A stretch of 12,500 bases of DNA, taken from assembly GCA_014634225.1 (NCBI GenBank), contig BLFN01000954.1:1827175-1839674 (forward strand), written 5' to 3'. The DNA is from Acropora yongei (taxonomy: Eukaryota > Cnidaria > Anthozoa > Scleractinia > Acroporidae). The notes under the pieces are model-generated. The model was not told the DNA's origin, did no database searches, and saw only the letters and a list, made by a program, of their open reading frames with translations. A program made the translations under genes and the position numbers. Below are positions 13 to 12,500 of this stretch, piece after piece; position 1 is the stretch's first letter, and each line of letters starts with the position of its first letter.

Positions 13-498
13 CTCGAACGCCCACCCGTTGGATGGATGCGCTTCTTCGATATAGACGGTGAGGAAGTCGGCCATGTCTTTAAATTGACGAACTATCTCT
101 AGAAATTCTTGAGTTCTTGCTCTGAACACAGGGCACGACCAACTGCCAAAATTGAGAACAAGGGGTCGGTTTCCACGGCAAAAGTTTAGTAAATGGGGAT
201 GAGAAGCACCGTCCAATGTCACGACTGAAGGATTGGGCGCACGCTGTCCAAAGCGCGCTGACTTTTGAAGGTCGCCGAGAATTGTAGAACGCACTGATTG
301 GAACATGTTCCACGAAAACAGCGAACCCCAGTAGTCGTCTATTGGCAAGTCTAGTGTCGTGATTGCCTTGGTCATCTTACCTACGACCCGTTTACTATAA
401 GGAACGAGGCGTAAAATGCGAAGGCAAATAAACGCCCAAAGGAGTAAAACAGTTCCCGCGAAATTATGAAACGCAGTTGACACTTTATGCAGCATCAT
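13..498 (-). CDS. Iodothyronine-deiodinase-like protein, copy A, exon 1 (3' part outside window)
   Basis: First coding exon of a deiodinase-family membrane thiol oxidoreductase; vertebrate members remove iodine from thyroid hormones. The 162 codons seen are open. Residues about 13-33 form one hydrophobic membrane anchor followed by basic residues (SKR). The thioredoxin-like domain follows: DDYW at 54-57, then NFGSWSCPVFRAR at 116-128, with C122 (TGC) where vertebrate enzymes have selenocysteine, then ADFLTVYIEEAHPSNGWAF at 143-161, with E152 and H154 in the conserved EEAH motif. The start is the first of two adjacent ATGs; an in-frame TGA lies one codon upstream (GCC between), which fixes the N-terminus. 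The exon ends GAG|GTAAGA in phase 0, the same codon as in copy B. The remaining roughly 95 codons should lie left of position 1. In the last 55 codons 38 residues match copy B; the N-terminal part is more diverged. Family call is firm from motifs; substrate is inferred. Confidence 0.9.
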
Positions 499-890
499 GG
501 CTCAACGACACGTCTTTCTTTTTTCCGATCTACTCTGGTCGGATGACTGCAGATTTTAATCTGTGAGGAGGACCTTCTCAATTTATACTCACTCAGCAGC
601 GAAGGAATTTCAAAAATTTTTGATCAAGAGAATTAATTTAAAAACATTTGCGGCATAAGTGACCTTTCACATGGCCCTTTCGTGAGGTAGAGATGACAAG
701 CTTGTTTCTTGAACACAAGTGCTACGAAAACATAACCGGAATTAGCAAACGGACTCACGCACGGATGGTTTTTTTCCTCGATCTCAAACGCCGTACCTGA
801 CTGTGAGTCATTTGGGAATGGTCGTGGTTGTTGCCAGTTTCCCTGCTTATGTCAGAGTGTTGTTGAATTTTCAATGCTTAGCCCCACTGC

Positions 891-927
891 TTTATATATT
901 TTTCGTTTCCTAAGTGACCCCAATTGG
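891..927 (-). promoter_or_regulatory. Candidate core promoter (CCAAT and TATA box) for copy A
   Basis: On the minus strand, TATATAAAG occurs at about 898-890, preceded some 25 bp upstream by CCAAT at 927-923. The TATA motif matches the consensus well and faces copy A. Transcription would start near 865-870, leaving a leader of about 370 nt to the ATG at 498. That leader contains other ATGs, so it may be spliced or the true start may lie elsewhere. The CCAAT-TATA spacing is shorter than usual. Confidence 0.35.
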
Positions 928-3195
928 CTCTAAAATTGAGGTCATCACGAAAAGGTTGTCTTATGTCCTAAAGCTCTTAACATGAAGCATTGATACCTTA
1001 TAAAGACATTGCCTCCAGCCCATCCATTGGAGCTTCACTTGGCTTGTTCAACAACTTAATCCCATGTTAAAATTAATATATTTGGAAAACACATTTTGTT
1101 GTTAGGCACTGATTTTCTTTTTTCAAAGCGAAAACAAGAGCATAACTGATTGCATTTTGTTTTTCAGTGTGGATCTGTATAAATATTATTCAAACAGATT
1201 CCCAGGATTAATACAGCGAGAGACTGATATTACATGTTTTGGGGTAATCTCGATCACCTTTTTGTTTCGTAACTTTGCACTCTCTCACCACAGTATGTGG
1301 TCGGGTTAAACAAGAACCCTTGACACTTGTAAACATTGGCGGTGTACTTGTACCACACGAAAACCAATGTTCGCTTTCCCACAAGGATTTCTGCAACTTC
1401 ATGTTTGCTTCTTAAGAATTAATAGTTTTAAAAAAACGAACAAACAAACGCAACGCTTTTCAAATGCCCAAAGTTTGTCTGTAAGAGGAAAACATGAGTG
1501 AATGTCTTTTCGAAAACTTGTATTCTTGTTGATCATGGCTTTCAAGAGAAACTGTTGCATTGAAAAAGTTTCGTTCGAGCGGGTTTTTTTATGTTTACAT
1601 TTCAACCGATCAAGAGTTTAACCTTAGCTTTTTTGGTTCAATTTGGCAGATAAGACTGAAGAGATGTTTAACCAACTCAAGAAATCCAGGGAATAGCTAA
1701 GGCAAAAGCAGGAAGTGATAGATAAAGTTTATCGCATAAGTTTTTTAAGTAAAAAAAGAAAACTTAAATAGACACCACTGTTTTTAGCAATCACGAATGA
1801 GATCAACGCATGTTTGAACTCGTAGTATCTATTGCTCGGCTGATATCGACATTAACAAAACGGTTCACAGTCCGTGTTTTGACAAATTCAAAAGGACATC
1901 GAAATTGCATGTGCGATTAAAGTTAAGTACTCTGTACCGGCAGTCTAAGCACTTGTAAGTACAATTCTGCTGTGCGCGTGCGTCAACCAAAGGATACGTG
2001 AAGAAATTCATGGCAATCAACTCGCATTTGTCCTCGTTATATTAAATATTTAAGGACTGAACATTTGCAGAATTAGTAGCGATTATAATACTGAAATTAT
2101 GGCGGAAAGAAAACACTTAAAGTATTTGTTACGGAATATTGATTCTGGGAGATGTATATTGTCCATTTTTAACTAGTACAGTTGTATCTTAATTCAATCG
2201 AGTCATCAACAACTCCTAGTACCCAATTGCACTTTGATGACGTCTTCCTTTGTAAGATAGCGTAGGTTCAAACCTCTTTTTGTTCGAAACTGTGTCATAC
2301 CCCAAAATTCTGAGGCCTTGCAAGCCCTTAAAATATTGAAATACAAAAAAAGAAGACTATGCACCGGCGCGGGCGGGAATGATCTTCAATTTTAGCTTAC
2401 GAAAAAGAAAAACAAAAAATTTGTCAGCACGTAACTAAGTAAGGCAAGAAGCAAGAGTCGACACCCGTCCACGTTTAAAAAAAAATTAATCATCAATGTT
2501 TCGAATTATGTAAAAATTCGCCCGAGGAGCTTTTGTGAAACTTCGCGTGACCTAACCTGCGTGTTTTTGGCTGTTTATCACAATTGCAAACAGAAGGCTA
2601 GAGCACGCGATCACAATGACATTGCAAATTCCCCTGAAAAAGCAAACTATTAGTCTCTTATTCACATTAATGCTGTATGGCTGAACATCTTTTGCATTTT
2701 TGTACGAGCGGGATAAATAAAACAAATTTATAGCATTCTTTCGGAATCGCTTTATTGATACAACCCAAACAGTTATCAATACGACTTTAACCGGCTTCAG
2801 TTTACGTGGTTAAGAGCGATGCTAAAACTTGCAGTTTAAAGGTTTTTCAATAAAAAATATATATACTTAATAACAGGCGAACAAGTAGAAGTATTTCAAA
2901 ATGTAGTTTTCATATGCAAGCTAAGGTTTGCCTCAATCTGACAAATAACAGCTGTTTTCGGACTCGTTGCAAACACATTGCATGACGGCTATTCGCAAAA
3001 TTAACTCATCAGACAGTCAAACCAAAACACGTCACAAGATTTTGCGTTCAGCCAGCTTTGGCAAACCTGCATAGATGCCACAGACAATAACAAACTGAAA
3101 AGATAATTTTCTCCTGGACTCCAACGCTCTTCATTTTCTGTGGTTTTTTGACGAAAATGTCAAGAATTTTGATGATAGTTTTCTATAACTATATT

Positions 3196-3243
3196 CTGCT
3201 CTTTGGCCTAAAGAGCTTTTTTGAGGGCCCTTTCAAAAAGCAG
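3196..3243. repeat. Pair of adjacent small inverted repeats
   Basis: At 3198-3216 GCTCTTT and AAAGAGC flank a 5-base centre. Immediately after, CTTTTTTGA and TCAAAAAG flank GGGCCCT-type sequence at 3216-3240. The outer ends CTGCT (3196-3200) and AGCAG (3239-3243) are also complementary, so the whole block can fold on itself. No function is known to me; it may be an eroded palindromic element. Confidence 0.4.
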
Positions 3244-4082
3244 TATATTTCTCAGATTTATTACTCTTTCTGATATGGAGAAAGTTCCATTTTTTTATGC
3301 TTGGTCTTATTAAGTGTTTTGTTTTTCAGCTGTCCTTTAAGCATACAAATTAACACTTGTTGTGGATGATTTACTTGATACAAGATATCACTTGAACACT
3401 TCTACACCATTTCATATTACTCAAATTTGAATTTTATCTTCTGCGATACTTTCCACTCTTCAAGCGTATAAGGGTTCTAGAATTCTGCAAAGAAAGACGT
3501 ATTTGCGTTTTGAAGTGACCCACTCACTTTTACGCCAAAAAACGCCAAAGTTGTTCACCGTTTGTACCTATGCTATGACGCAAAAAGATAGTTCACGTCA
3601 TTGCGTGTATTCGAGTCGTTCACTGTTCACTTGAGATGAAGTAGCTGCCATCGCGCTTACACCCCAACAACACTCGGATCCAATATAAGGGTATTGACTG
3701 AAACGTTGAAAGGAACGAAATGCTCTCGCACAAGCCTGGTATTTTCCGCAAGCGTGTGCACCGCTAACAATTTCCATTTAGTACGTTTCATCATGTTAGC
3801 TGTTAAACCGTCCAAAACTGTTTTTCCATGGACGTCGCCGGATTTGAAAAATAATCTGGGTCCATTGTGTTTTTGTGATAAAGGCCGACTTGTCTGGTAT
3901 TGAGGTATGCTGGGAGACTCGTGTCTAATAAAAGAAGGAAACCGTTACAAGTGTTCCCTGTCAAAGCGCAGCAAACTAACGTAAAGCGTGTTGTCCTCCT
4001 TCATTCAAAACATGAACATGAATCATCCGCAATTCGGACAAAACGACAATTGCAAGAACACATGTTTACAATTGTTTCTTTT

Positions 4083-4088
4083 TTTATT
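4083..4088 (-). terminator. Candidate polyadenylation signal AATAAA of copy B
   Basis: This is the first exact AATAAA I find on the minus strand downstream of the copy B stop at 4880; it would give a 3' UTR of about 800 nt. A TGTGTTCTTG stretch follows some 25-40 bases further on, as expected of a GU-rich downstream element. Variant signals closer to the stop cannot be excluded. Confidence 0.3.
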
Positions 4089-4879
4089 TGTTCTTTAGAA
4101 GCAAGAAATTAAGAGAATGCCCTAAAGGTTACGAACGTGATGTACTTAGATCATTAATGACTTTTCGGTGAAAGCAAACCGCCTCATTTTGCATGATGGT
4201 CGCCTTATTTTCTGGTTTTGGTTGAAAAGGTCATCGATGCGTGCTCAGTGCATATATAAACTTATGTCTCATGATGGATTCTTGACTGATATGTATATAT
4301 TGGCTTAAAGTATGTCTACAACTCATATCTATGATAGTTTTTCTCTTTGTCCATTTCCAATGGCCCTAGGCCACGCATACTACGGTACACTTGCACACCA
4401 CGTGCGGGACAGCTTGCGTTAATGAGATACGCGCGTGTCTCCTTTACTCTCACACTTATAAAGTGTCCCTTATTTTTTCTTTCTTTTTCCAGATTTAAGT
4501 CTGAAAAAAAATACTATAATCAACTTTGAAAGCTGAAGTGACATTGGAAATATTGCAATGAAAGGAAAAAAAACGAACAAACACAACGTTGGCTGTTCAA
4601 TTTGGTTCGAGCGGTTAAAATCAGTCAGACGTTCTAGTCACACTTAAGAAATTTTCATGTCTGTATTCATTGGAATTCGTTAAAATAATAACACGAAAGT
4701 AAACTAATTAAGTAGCTTCTGTTGTATAGCCACAGGTAAACATTTCAAATAGCTGGCATCCAAGGGACGTATGTTGCGTCTTGTCTCTGTCTGGAGGTCT
4801 CTTCAACTGAAGGATAAGCATTTACGTCAGATCAAAGTTACTTCGTGGAAACCCCATGACTAGAAACATTTTCTTCAAC

Positions 4880-7444
4880 CTAGGCTCTGTGTCTTGTATT
4901 TTTCTGGTACGTGGTGCTGTAGGATTGAAGCCACTCCTTCACTTCATTTAGGTTATAAAACGTGGGTCCAACACCACCAGCATATTCTACATTTCTCCCT
5001 TTCAGAATGAACAGTCTGATGGGCATTCCGGCGTAAGCTTTGTTTGTCGTGTCTCCCATGTTGTCTACAACGATGGGACAGTCAAATGCCACTGTGTCCA
5101 GCATCACTTGCGCTGCAGCGCATCTTTGCTCCAGTGTTTGATGTTTGGGAATAGTAACATTGTTCTAAATGGAAGAGAATATAATTTGCTTAGCCAGTTT
5201 ACTAAGTTAAGCCCACGCCAAAAGTTACGGCAAAAGATCTTGGGAAGAAAAATTAATGGGCCAATGAAAATGATATGGTATTCAAAGTACATTGTAGGTG
5301 TGAACTGAGCCAAACTCCTTAAAAATTCGAGACTAATAGAGAGCACCGTTCCGTTGTCTTTGCATAGAGGCTGTGTGCAGTGTTTATCGTCTCACTCCCA
5401 GATTTACGAGATGTCCTACAATGTTGAAGGGTTTCATCAATGAGAAAAAGTCTCTCGCATTAACAAACCTGCTTAGTTCCTTAGCTTAATTGGGGACGTA
5501 CTTCAAGTAAAGTGGATGAATGGATTTCTGGAGCATTTCGAAAAAGGAACAATGTTAAAAGGGCGGAAATTATATATAGTCGAAAATTTCAGATGGGAAA
5601 GTCAGAGAATGGTTTGTTGAAACTTACTGGCAAAAAAGGAGAAAACGATACCAGCAGTGACTGATCTGTTAAGGTTATGGTTGGGATTACGTAGTATGTA
5701 AATGCAATCTTCACGCACAAAGAACACTTTGGCGTGGAGATACATCTTACTCTGTTTCAGCGGGAAAAGCGAAGAACGAAATCAAATTAAAATTGCGACA
5801 GATAAACCGTCACACTTATGGATTACATTTAGTGCCAAAACCCTAAGAACAACAAACTGTAAAGACCAAGTGATAAACAGAACAAATTGGGTTGGAGGAT
5901 TTCGATTTGAAAGGTCACATTTTGGATTTCAAAGGTTAGGGACCACCACGATGTGTAGTAATGCAGCGCCACGGCAAGAAGTTATGTGATGGTCGGCTAT
6001 CTGTTAAAGAGTCGGTCAAGACCTTCGTAAATAAAAAATGACTGAGGTTTAAACAATGTACGTAATGCCTTGGTTTGGTGCCAATTCAAACAATAGGCTT
6101 CAGGGGTTTTCGGCACTGATTTTCGAGCTTTCATCGATGTGGTTCCTGAGTTGCGCCCTTGTACTATTATGAATATTCTTGTTGAAATGGTATTTTTCAC
6201 AGTTTCAAATTGTCTGCTACTGTGAAGGAATCTAAAGCAAAAAGGAAACTGGAAGTAAGAGAGATAAATTAGAACTACGAGGCCAGGACTTTGGTTTATG
6301 AAGAAAATCTTTTCTGGGGAAAAATAGGCTCAGTAAACAACGAATTTCCACTGAAGGGAAAATGTGTAAAATTCGTTAGCTTGAAAAAGTGACCCTCAAA
6401 GGCCAAAAGATGAATAAATCACTACTTTCAAAAAAAGTGCTGAGTTTTAAGATTAATTCATGAAATGCGATTTTTATGCAAGCCTGAACGCATTGATCTC
6501 GTTTTGCACGCGTAGAGTTTCCTCTTTCATACCAGATGGTAGTTGTGGCGAGTGAAGGTTTTTCAAAAATAAACACACATGCTCTCTATGTCAAATTGTC
6601 GTTGTAAGTTAGTAAGGAACACAAAATAGCGGTCGCTACAATTTCCTCCTATTACATCCCATTAATCCCATGTCGAACAATATCTAGAGGCGTACGACTT
6701 TCCCTTTGTTAGCTAATATCTGAAAACCTGCATTTCGGTGGAATTTTAAGAAAACCTTCCCTGATTTATGAAGTGAGACGATAACATTTCGCCCCAAGGA
6801 CCTATAGGGATCATTGAAAATATTTAGGTTTGGTGTTCGTGTAGGAAATTTGATTTTCATGAAACCTTGGGGCTCGAGTTTCAGTAAGCCTCTTTTATAA
6901 TGTCTGGAGGTCTGACTTAACTCTTCACACATAGACGTCGTTTTCTTACCTTAAAAGCCCACCCATCGCATGGATGCGCTTCTTCTACGTAAACTGTCAA
7001 AAAATCAGCCACGTCACTATATTCACCTACGATACTGAGGAATTGGTCCACTCTGGCTCTAAAAACAGGGCAGGTCCAACTGCAGAAATTGATAACTAAT
7101 GGACGATTCCCCTCGGAAAAGTCCAGTAGCTGATGACGTGATCGGCCATCCACCGCAAAAACATGAGAGTCTGGGGCGGAATCTCCAGCTTCGCGAACAG
7201 ATTTCTGAAGCTCAAGCAAAATGGACGAGCGCATGGAGTCAAACATAGGACGCGTAAATAATGATTGCCAGTAGTCGTCTTGTTGCATCTTAACGGTCGC
7301 AATTTTCTTCATCAATTCGACGAGAATCCATTGTGCACACGGAAAAAGTTGCACAAGTCGGCAGATAATGAAGGCAAGCAAGAGAACTAGTGAGCCAGTA
7401 TAGTACTTCGCAAGCACTGATATATCGCTCCAATTCAGCAGCAT
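4880..7444 (-). CDS. Iodothyronine-deiodinase-like protein, copy B, complete two-exon gene (exons 6950-7444 and 4880-5164)
   Basis: Complete deiodinase-family gene, join(4880..5164, 6950..7444) on the minus strand, predicted 259 aa, close to the usual 250-280 aa of the family. Exon 1 encodes residues 1-165: a hydrophobic anchor at about 16-36, DDYW at 56-59, NFCSWTCPVFRAR at 119-131 and ADFLTVYVEEAHPCDGWAF at 146-164. C125 (TGC) replaces the catalytic selenocysteine; E155 and H157 match the catalytic EEAH motif. Exon 2 encodes 166-259: NNVTIPKHQTLEQR with H173, 16 residues after H157 as in vertebrate DIO1 (His158/His174), then CPIVVD at 194-199, YAGMP at 209-213 and the GGVGP turn at 228-232, ending in TAG. 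The start is the first ATG after an in-frame TAG and has A at -3. Odd points: C121 replaces the usual Gly, giving CSWTC, and Trp occupies the position two before the catalytic residue. Likely an ER or plasma-membrane reductase; substrate unknown. Confidence 0.92.
5165..6949 (-). other. Intron of deiodinase-like copy B
   Basis: The intron begins AAG|GTAAGAAA after codon 165 and ends TTTAG|AAC, phase 0. Joining here restores the family motif W-A-F-K-N-N, which spans an exon boundary in this gene, so both splice sites are well supported. The acceptor has a weak pyrimidine tract. The interior (1,785 bp) holds several open frames of 66-95 codons on both strands, including one at 5702-5989, but none has recognisable motifs, and I see no nested gene or repeat that I can name. 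Confidence 0.88.
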
Positions 7445-11525: not shown

Positions 11526-12500
11526 ACACAACCCGAATGCGCAGTATCCTGTTGTTCTCCGCGTTTGAACATCGGGAGGCATAACATTTTAGATATTTAA
11601 AGAACAACTGTTGTAATCGGATGAAATCTTTAAAAACACGAAAGCCTCTAGAAATATTTGGGTCTGCTGAAAGAACTCAGCAGCTGTCGAGAGAAAATCT
11701 GCTTATGTTGAAAAACTGCTTGAAAGACCTGCCAGTTACAAGTGCTACGTTATGCTACCAGTCTCTCTTTCTTGTGGGGAGAATTAGAGATCAAAGTCAG
11801 TCTAGGTTTCCATTATGTTGCTGGCTAACAAACATCCACGAAAAAAAATTGTTTCACAGCAACTCGTAAAAGCATTTAGCAATTTTCCCGCAAATACAAC
11901 ATTCAAATCGACTAAATTCACGATCATCCTTCCATACTGATTTTGTCGTCCACTTCATATTCCAAAAATACAGATTTTTAATACGTCACTTGACTGGAGA
12001 AGACGACGACCTTGCAAGAACAAGGCACCTCGTAATCAACACCTCGCCTCCAACAAACCAACAATCAGAGATTGCGGTTTCTCAAGAGAAATTAAACACA
12101 TCAGCGCATTGCCTCAAACTGATATCCAAAGATGATTTCTGAGTTCGATTCAGGTCTGGCACTAAGGCAGGCCGAAATGTACACAGAAATAGCCTTTCTC
12201 TCACAGTTTTAGGAAGCTCAATCACCTCTATGGTATGTCATGCCAACTATCTGCCGAAGGCAAATCTGATAACGCGCCATTTATAGTCATCTATTCAGCG
12301 ATCTGACAGGATTCGCAAAAGAGCAACAACATGCACACTCTGCGGGCCTATCTTGCAGTTAGTTAGCAAAGGTCACCAGAAGCTTTGTTTCCAGGAAAGC
12401 ACACCCTCCAAAGATACATGGGAACAATTTATAGGGGGGGGGGATGAAGACCCCTGGAAAAGAATGAACATGTTCGAAACATGATGGAAAAATGTTGCAT
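11526..12500. other. Right end of window, no supported gene
   Basis: A plus-strand open frame at 11621-11869 and a frame from about 11970 to the TGA near 12140, basic at its start (RRRR), are visible. Neither has motifs or a convincing exon context. A G10 homopolymer lies at 12434-12443. Nothing else is recognised. Confidence 0.45.

Follow-up and report, generated by a model that had tools for sequence, protein, structure and literature searches.

Can two adjoining coral genes that carry a cysteine codon in place of the selenocysteine (Sec) codon of vertebrate iodothyronine deiodinases encode selenium-free enzymes of that family, and on what would such enzymes act? The question is raised by a 12,500-nucleotide (nt) stretch of Acropora yongei DNA, here called the window, in which two deiodinase-family genes (copy A and copy B) adjoin head to tail on the minus strand. 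Sequence comparisons and a structural model make it fairly probable, in our view, that the genes encode two thioredoxin-fold members of the iodothyronine deiodinase family with cysteine as the catalytic residue, and that they belong to stony-coral branches of a Cys-type group with named anthozoan members. Publications are cited by PMC number.

Cysteine codons in two deiodinase-family genes

In both copies, a TGC codon stands at the vertebrate Sec position, as a first-pass annotation of the window had claimed; it was read at 135-133 in copy A and at 7072-7070 in copy B. The tandem arrangement described there was also found. The relevant features, with the alignments that place the two codons, are as follows.

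13..498, minus strand: copy A exon 1, 162 amino acids (aa), MMLHK...NGWAFE; the PF00837 match spans 13-501
133..135, minus strand: copy A TGC, Cys122, at the vertebrate Sec position in the motif GSWSC-PVF; placed by aligning protein P0037 (see below) to the mouse D3 and D2 crystal sequences
4880..5164, minus strand: copy B exon 2, 94 aa and stop, with H173 (second His), C194 (distal Cys) and the C terminus RHRA
5165..6949, minus strand: copy B intron, 1785 bases, GT..AG
6950..7444, minus strand: copy B exon 1, 165 aa, with an N-terminal helix, the active site CSWTC-PVF, EEAH and WAFK
7070..7072, minus strand: copy B TGC, Cys125, at the vertebrate Sec position; aligned to the crystal sequences 4tr3 (mouse D3) and 9h48 (mouse D2), also via protein P0001

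The catalytic cysteine of copy A is residue 122 if counted from the first Met (at 498) and residue 121 if counted from the second. Exon 1 of this copy is followed by a GT donor at 12-11, and its exon 2 lies beyond the window edge, left of base 1. Copy B is complete, with two exons, 259 aa, an intact frame and clean splice sites. Among seven Rfam matches up to an E value of 10 in the window, none reached the gathering score and none was a selenocysteine insertion sequence (SECIS) element; the window does not include the 3' end of copy A. Thus, neither copy shows the in-frame UGA and SECIS element by which a selenoprotein is recognized.

We compared the active sites with those of related proteins (the best 120 of 156 in one search; 123 in the combined set, numbered with the prefix P). 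Together with the two copies, these gave 125 rows, 34 of which were unreadable and were left out. The catalytic position was Cys in 85 of the 91 readable rows and Trp in the remaining six. Ten of the 85 Cys rows are annotated records, where U may appear as C (P0011, P0013, P0031, P0038, P0058, P0060, P0063, P0069, P0075 and P0079), and it is on such records that the Cys of the named anemone (Actinia) and soft coral (Xenia) rests. We infer that the six Trp rows are UGA codons translated as Trp, because P0074 (Trp) and a named fish deiodinase (P0075) form a fully supported pair in both trees described below, and vertebrate deiodinases are selenoproteins (PMC3316567).

Family membership is clear. 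The Pfam family T4_deiodinase (PF00837) matched exon 1 of copy A (E 3.2e-35, 122 bits), exon 1 of copy B (E 4.5e-33, 114.9 bits) and exon 2 of copy B (E 1e-21, 77.8 bits), far over the cutoff of 27 bits, and at E<=0.001 the exons matched no other Pfam family. Two database proteins served as stand-ins for the copies: P0001, which differs from spliced copy B at 2 of 259 residues, and P0037, which differs from copy A exon 1 at 4 of 162. Against crystal sequences, P0001 matched mouse D3 (E 1.4e-39) and mouse D2 (5.3e-36), as did P0037 (2.9e-36 and 3.1e-31); besides these two, no distinct solved sequence passed E 0.001 in either search. An AlphaFold model of P0001 (27-sequence alignment; mean predicted local distance difference test [pLDDT] score, 92.7) adopted the thioredoxin fold nearest the solved deiodinases. 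The top two matches of the model were D3 (4tr3, E 4.7e-18) and D2 (9h48, 4.1e-17). The model contains an N-terminal helix at residues 5-33, and both proteins are probably membrane-anchored. We rejected another thioredoxin-like family, a possibility raised in the first-pass annotation, because the best sequence and fold matches were deiodinases. The suggested role in iodotyrosine metabolism was not borne out: iodotyrosine deiodinase is reportedly a flavoprotein, going by a study title, and the exons gave no flavoprotein-family match in the same Pfam search at that E limit.

The next fold matches, among the best 50 of 1260, were ResA-like proteins and peroxiredoxins. They would suit proteins that kept the deiodinase fold but whose main task lies in the redox defence of the coral, as thiol peroxidases or thiol-disulfide oxidoreductases, and a dithiol redox protein would also fit the pocket and cysteine changes of copy B described below (the absent D3 clamp and a Cys at position -4). 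Furthermore, the authors who reported a deiodinase-like transcript of Acropora assigned it to oxidative stress on the basis of a database annotation (PMC3204972). However, a redox role is quite unlikely, because the third fold match (1.1e-06) is more than 10 orders of magnitude weaker in E value than the two deiodinases, and because residues E155, H157 and W162 (copy B numbering) are kept in 91/91 readable rows. The EEAH Glu and His and the loop Trp are present in copy A as well, and copy B also has the second His (H173). These motifs had been described as intact in the first-pass annotation. The second His of copy A belongs to the exon outside the window and was seen in P0037.

Expression and phylogeny of the two copies

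Both copies are apparently expressed, judging by contigs from other records, which may not be those of A. yongei. P0001 (259 aa, 37 member sequences, one contig of 1683 bases) is 100% identical to copy B exon 2 over its residues 166-259. Since the copy B intron exceeds this contig in length, the source of the contig is spliced RNA or, with lower probability, a processed copy. P0037 (256 aa, 28 member sequences, longest contig 2085 bases) continues past exon 1 into a deiodinase C terminus. At the same position, two proteins from longer contigs (P0034 and P0035) instead continue into unrelated residues, which fits the presence of an intron. Absence of expression had been named as an outcome that would refute the first-pass idea; the near-identical proteins, whose contigs leave no room for the intron, instead speak for expression.

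These data also bear on the possibility that one copy, or both, is a decaying pseudogene or that TGC is an assembly error for TGA. Such an explanation has in its favor only that broken relatives exist, and we find it very hard to credit: the frames are intact, the splice sites of copy B are clean, near-identical proteins occur in other records, Cys holds the catalytic place in all but six readable rows, and no SECIS match was obtained in the window. The pseudogene reading was rejected. The broken relatives are P0033 and P0112, fragments in which the first part of a deiodinase exon is joined to another tail instead of the active site; they are probably broken copies.

Two trees were calculated. 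A quick tree of 83 rows contained 81 of the 123 proteins and both copies, with a readable motif and at least 150 aa being required and six duplicates or fragments (P0023, P0032, P0035, P0053, P0055 and P0079) being excluded by hand. A careful tree of 46 rows contained 38 hand-chosen proteins, both copies and six outgroup rows, the latter taken from 12 bacterial and archaeal relatives that were used solely for this purpose. In both trees, copies A and B fell into different branches of one clade. In the 83-row tree, the enclosing clade has 56 rows (support 98, starred), and its named genera are, as we take them to be, stony corals. Within it, copy A belongs to an 11-row starred set in a branch of 26 rows (95, starred), and copy B belongs to a 13-row starred set in a branch of 29 rows (98, starred). 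Among named relatives, the one nearest to copy A comes from Montipora capricornis (86%). The idea of a lineage-specific branch thus held, in the form of two branches within a stony-coral clade.

The exon 1 proteins of the two copies share 51% identity (80/158 aligned residues), so the duplication is not recent; a recent duplication was rejected on this ground and because of the placement in separate clades. Moreover, the A/B pairing looks old, because four pairs of A-branch and B-branch proteins have equal longest contigs: P0036/P0059 (39036 bases), P0044/P0006 (1047393), P0061/P0008 (121567) and P0031/P0011 from Desmophyllum pertusum (857037). In a tree with 39 labelled rows (33 Cys, 6 Trp), a single change between Cys and UGA suffices.

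One Trp row stands apart. P0097 (195 aa, ENA, longest contig 6747 bases) has Trp, probably UGA, at the Sec position, and its frame leaves the family at the coral intron point. Its grouping with 32 Cys rows was neither shown nor rejected (approximately unbiased test, p-AU 0.381); P0097 is possibly a gene of Sec type within this region of the tree.

Elsewhere in the window, no third copy was seen by tblastn with six query proteins (the remaining matches all had E >= 0.09), and no tandem repeats were found. Ten further open frames, picked from 44 of at least 60 aa, were scanned with Pfam and gave two weak matches only, both under the cutoff. One was a HypF finger (E 0.074). The other was a death effector domain in the plus-strand frame 11585-11866 (E 0.012, 16.3 bits versus a cutoff of 35.9) and is probably a chance match or a remnant.

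Recycling cysteines and the substrate pocket

In human D1, a cysteine two residues before Sec (position -2, the proximal Cys) bonds to the catalytic residue; glutathione requires it to reduce the enzyme, while dithiothreitol bypasses it (PMC9141512). In both coral copies, Trp replaces this proximal Cys of D1 and D3. D2 also lacks it and has Ala (PMC9141512); therefore, a missing proximal Cys alone implies no loss of function. A cysteine at position -4 was found in 43/91 readable rows, the proximal Cys in 17/91 and both in 0/91. This looks like the pattern that a shifted recycling cysteine would produce, although the rows share kinship and the counts are therefore no statistical test. Copy B has both the -4 Cys (C121) and the distal Cys (C194). 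Neither the -2 nor the -4 Cys is present in 20 rows of the coral group, including copy A. Because the motif [CG]S[WY][ST]C defined this group of 63 rows, Trp or Tyr at -2 in 63/63 is true by construction. No mention of a -4/-2 cysteine exchange was met in the mostly open literature consulted, in which no search was aimed at that motif.

Ser, Thr, Tyr, Glu, His and His, the relay residues named for D2 and D1, were proposed to protonate the substrate (PMC11592359, PMC9141512). All six residues align in copy B (S122, T124, Y152, E155, H157 and H173). In copy A, the Thr is replaced by Ser, a substitution that left human D1 with almost wild-type activity (PMC9141512).

From these residues, a mechanism can be proposed. 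The cysteine thiolate would take the halogen from an aromatic ring, the Thr/Ser-Glu-His relay would protonate the ring carbon, and the oxidized cysteine would be reduced again by thiols. In copy B, recycling might proceed via C121, via the distal C194 or through an external thiol directly, because the proximal Cys of human D1 is Trp here. Copy A, with neither the -2 nor the -4 Cys, might be recycled in a D2-like manner. The substrate is likely an iodinated tyrosine-derived compound (an iodothyronine or an acetic acid analogue); this is the least certain step.

Several observations weigh against this picture of two Cys-type iodothyronine deiodinases. First, D3 Arg275, which holds the hormone carboxylate in simulations (PMC7506546), is replaced by Val in copy B and by Ile in P0037; in the PERL motif, Ile takes the place of the Glu that precedes the conserved Arg. 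Iodothyronine therefore need not be the substrate, and a different one is a live option. Second, the distal Cys is replaced by Ser in P0037, whereas Montipora P0038 has Cys, and human D1 with a mutated proximal Cys was not recycled by glutathione (PMC9141512); a replacement of the proximal Cys by the -4 Cys is thus conjectural. Third, the 46-row tree gives the A/B split unstarred (93/94 and 81/91), with P0024 outside both branches, and equal longest contigs suggest linkage rather than prove it. Finally, the 33-row Cys group is weakly supported (69/37).

The substitutions at the Arg275 and PERL positions, together with the Trp beside the active site, would suit reductive dehalogenases of other halogenated aromatics, such as marine bromo- or iodo-metabolites, rather than of iodothyronines. 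This is doubtful, since neither D1 nor D2 has Arg exactly at the D3 Arg275 position (in D1 it precedes this position by one residue, and in D2 Lys is found there; PMC7506546), and since a review passage describes coral iodinated compounds as predominantly thyroxine (T4), favoring iodothyronine. A further-reaching version is unlikely: a selenium-free coral branch in which the resolving Cys moved from -2 to -4, the vertebrate substrate clamp is absent, recycling depends on another arrangement of thiols and the substrates are halogenated coral metabolites instead of thyroid hormones. The first-pass suggestion of an own substrate or chemistry is thus upheld in part: the proximal Cys is Trp in both copies and Val stands at the D3 Arg275 position in copy B, while an iodotyrosine substrate is not supported.

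For the Cys-type deiodinases that we favor, some context comes from coral biology. Iodinated compounds are reported to be present in large amounts in corals (PMC13078365). In Acropora millepora, a "thyroxine 5'-deiodinase" transcript belongs to a pool enriched in larvae over primary polyps (PMC3204972), and a type III iodothyronine deiodinase entry appears in a gene list of a cnidarian-dinoflagellate study (PMC3141003). The gene pair makes thyroid-hormone-like chemistry in corals directly testable. A natural selenium-free branch with a possibly shifted Cys also offers a comparison for why vertebrates use Sec and which Cys recycles the enzyme.

Comparison with known deiodinases

The coral copies resemble vertebrate DIO1, DIO2 and DIO3 (compared with mouse D3 4tr3 and D2 9h48) in Pfam family, fold, EEAH motif, second His, loop Trp and relay residues and, for copy B, in the distal Cys. 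They differ in having Cys for Sec, no SECIS match and Trp for the proximal Cys of D1 and D3; copy B further differs in its -4 Cys, in Val at the D3 Arg275 position and in Ile for the Glu of PERL.

The bacterial and archaeal relatives (L001-L012; 29-36% identity) share FGS[CW]TCP in 12/12 and the EAH motif. One of the two search patterns used to find them required C or W at the catalytic position, and nothing follows from them on Sec forms. Unlike the coral copies, they keep Cys at -2 in 11/12. The remaining locus, L008 (Planctomycetota), is alone among the 12 loci read in having Trp two residues before the catalytic Cys (FGSWTCP).

An animal deiodinase without selenium is also reported from another lineage. 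Likened by its title alone, the study of Klootwijk et al. (2011) concerns an amphioxus non-selenoprotein deiodinase that reportedly deiodinates Triac.

Closer to the coral genes, anthozoan database proteins (Actinia, Pocillopora, Oculina, Desmophyllum, Montipora and Xenia) have Cys at the Sec position, and several named coral records are near relatives of the copies. The Actinia protein P0058 differs in having GSCTC, with a proximal Cys, versus mostly [CG]SW[ST]C in the stony-coral clade. Nematostella vectensis was reported in 2012 to have solely Cys-form deiodinase genes (PMC3473315), which are likened to the coral copies by their description, with Cys at the Sec position in the same family. 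Cys in an animal deiodinase is thus not surprising as such, contrary to what the first-pass annotation implied. Four deiodinases were counted in Nematostella (from earlier work) and five in Edwardsiella (PMC3909931), and clusters of deiodinase genes are described for amphioxus, Trichoplax and Lottia (PMC3473315). With the exchange of Cys for Sec already reported in this group, the more interesting part of the A. yongei pair is the rearranged cysteine and pocket residues.

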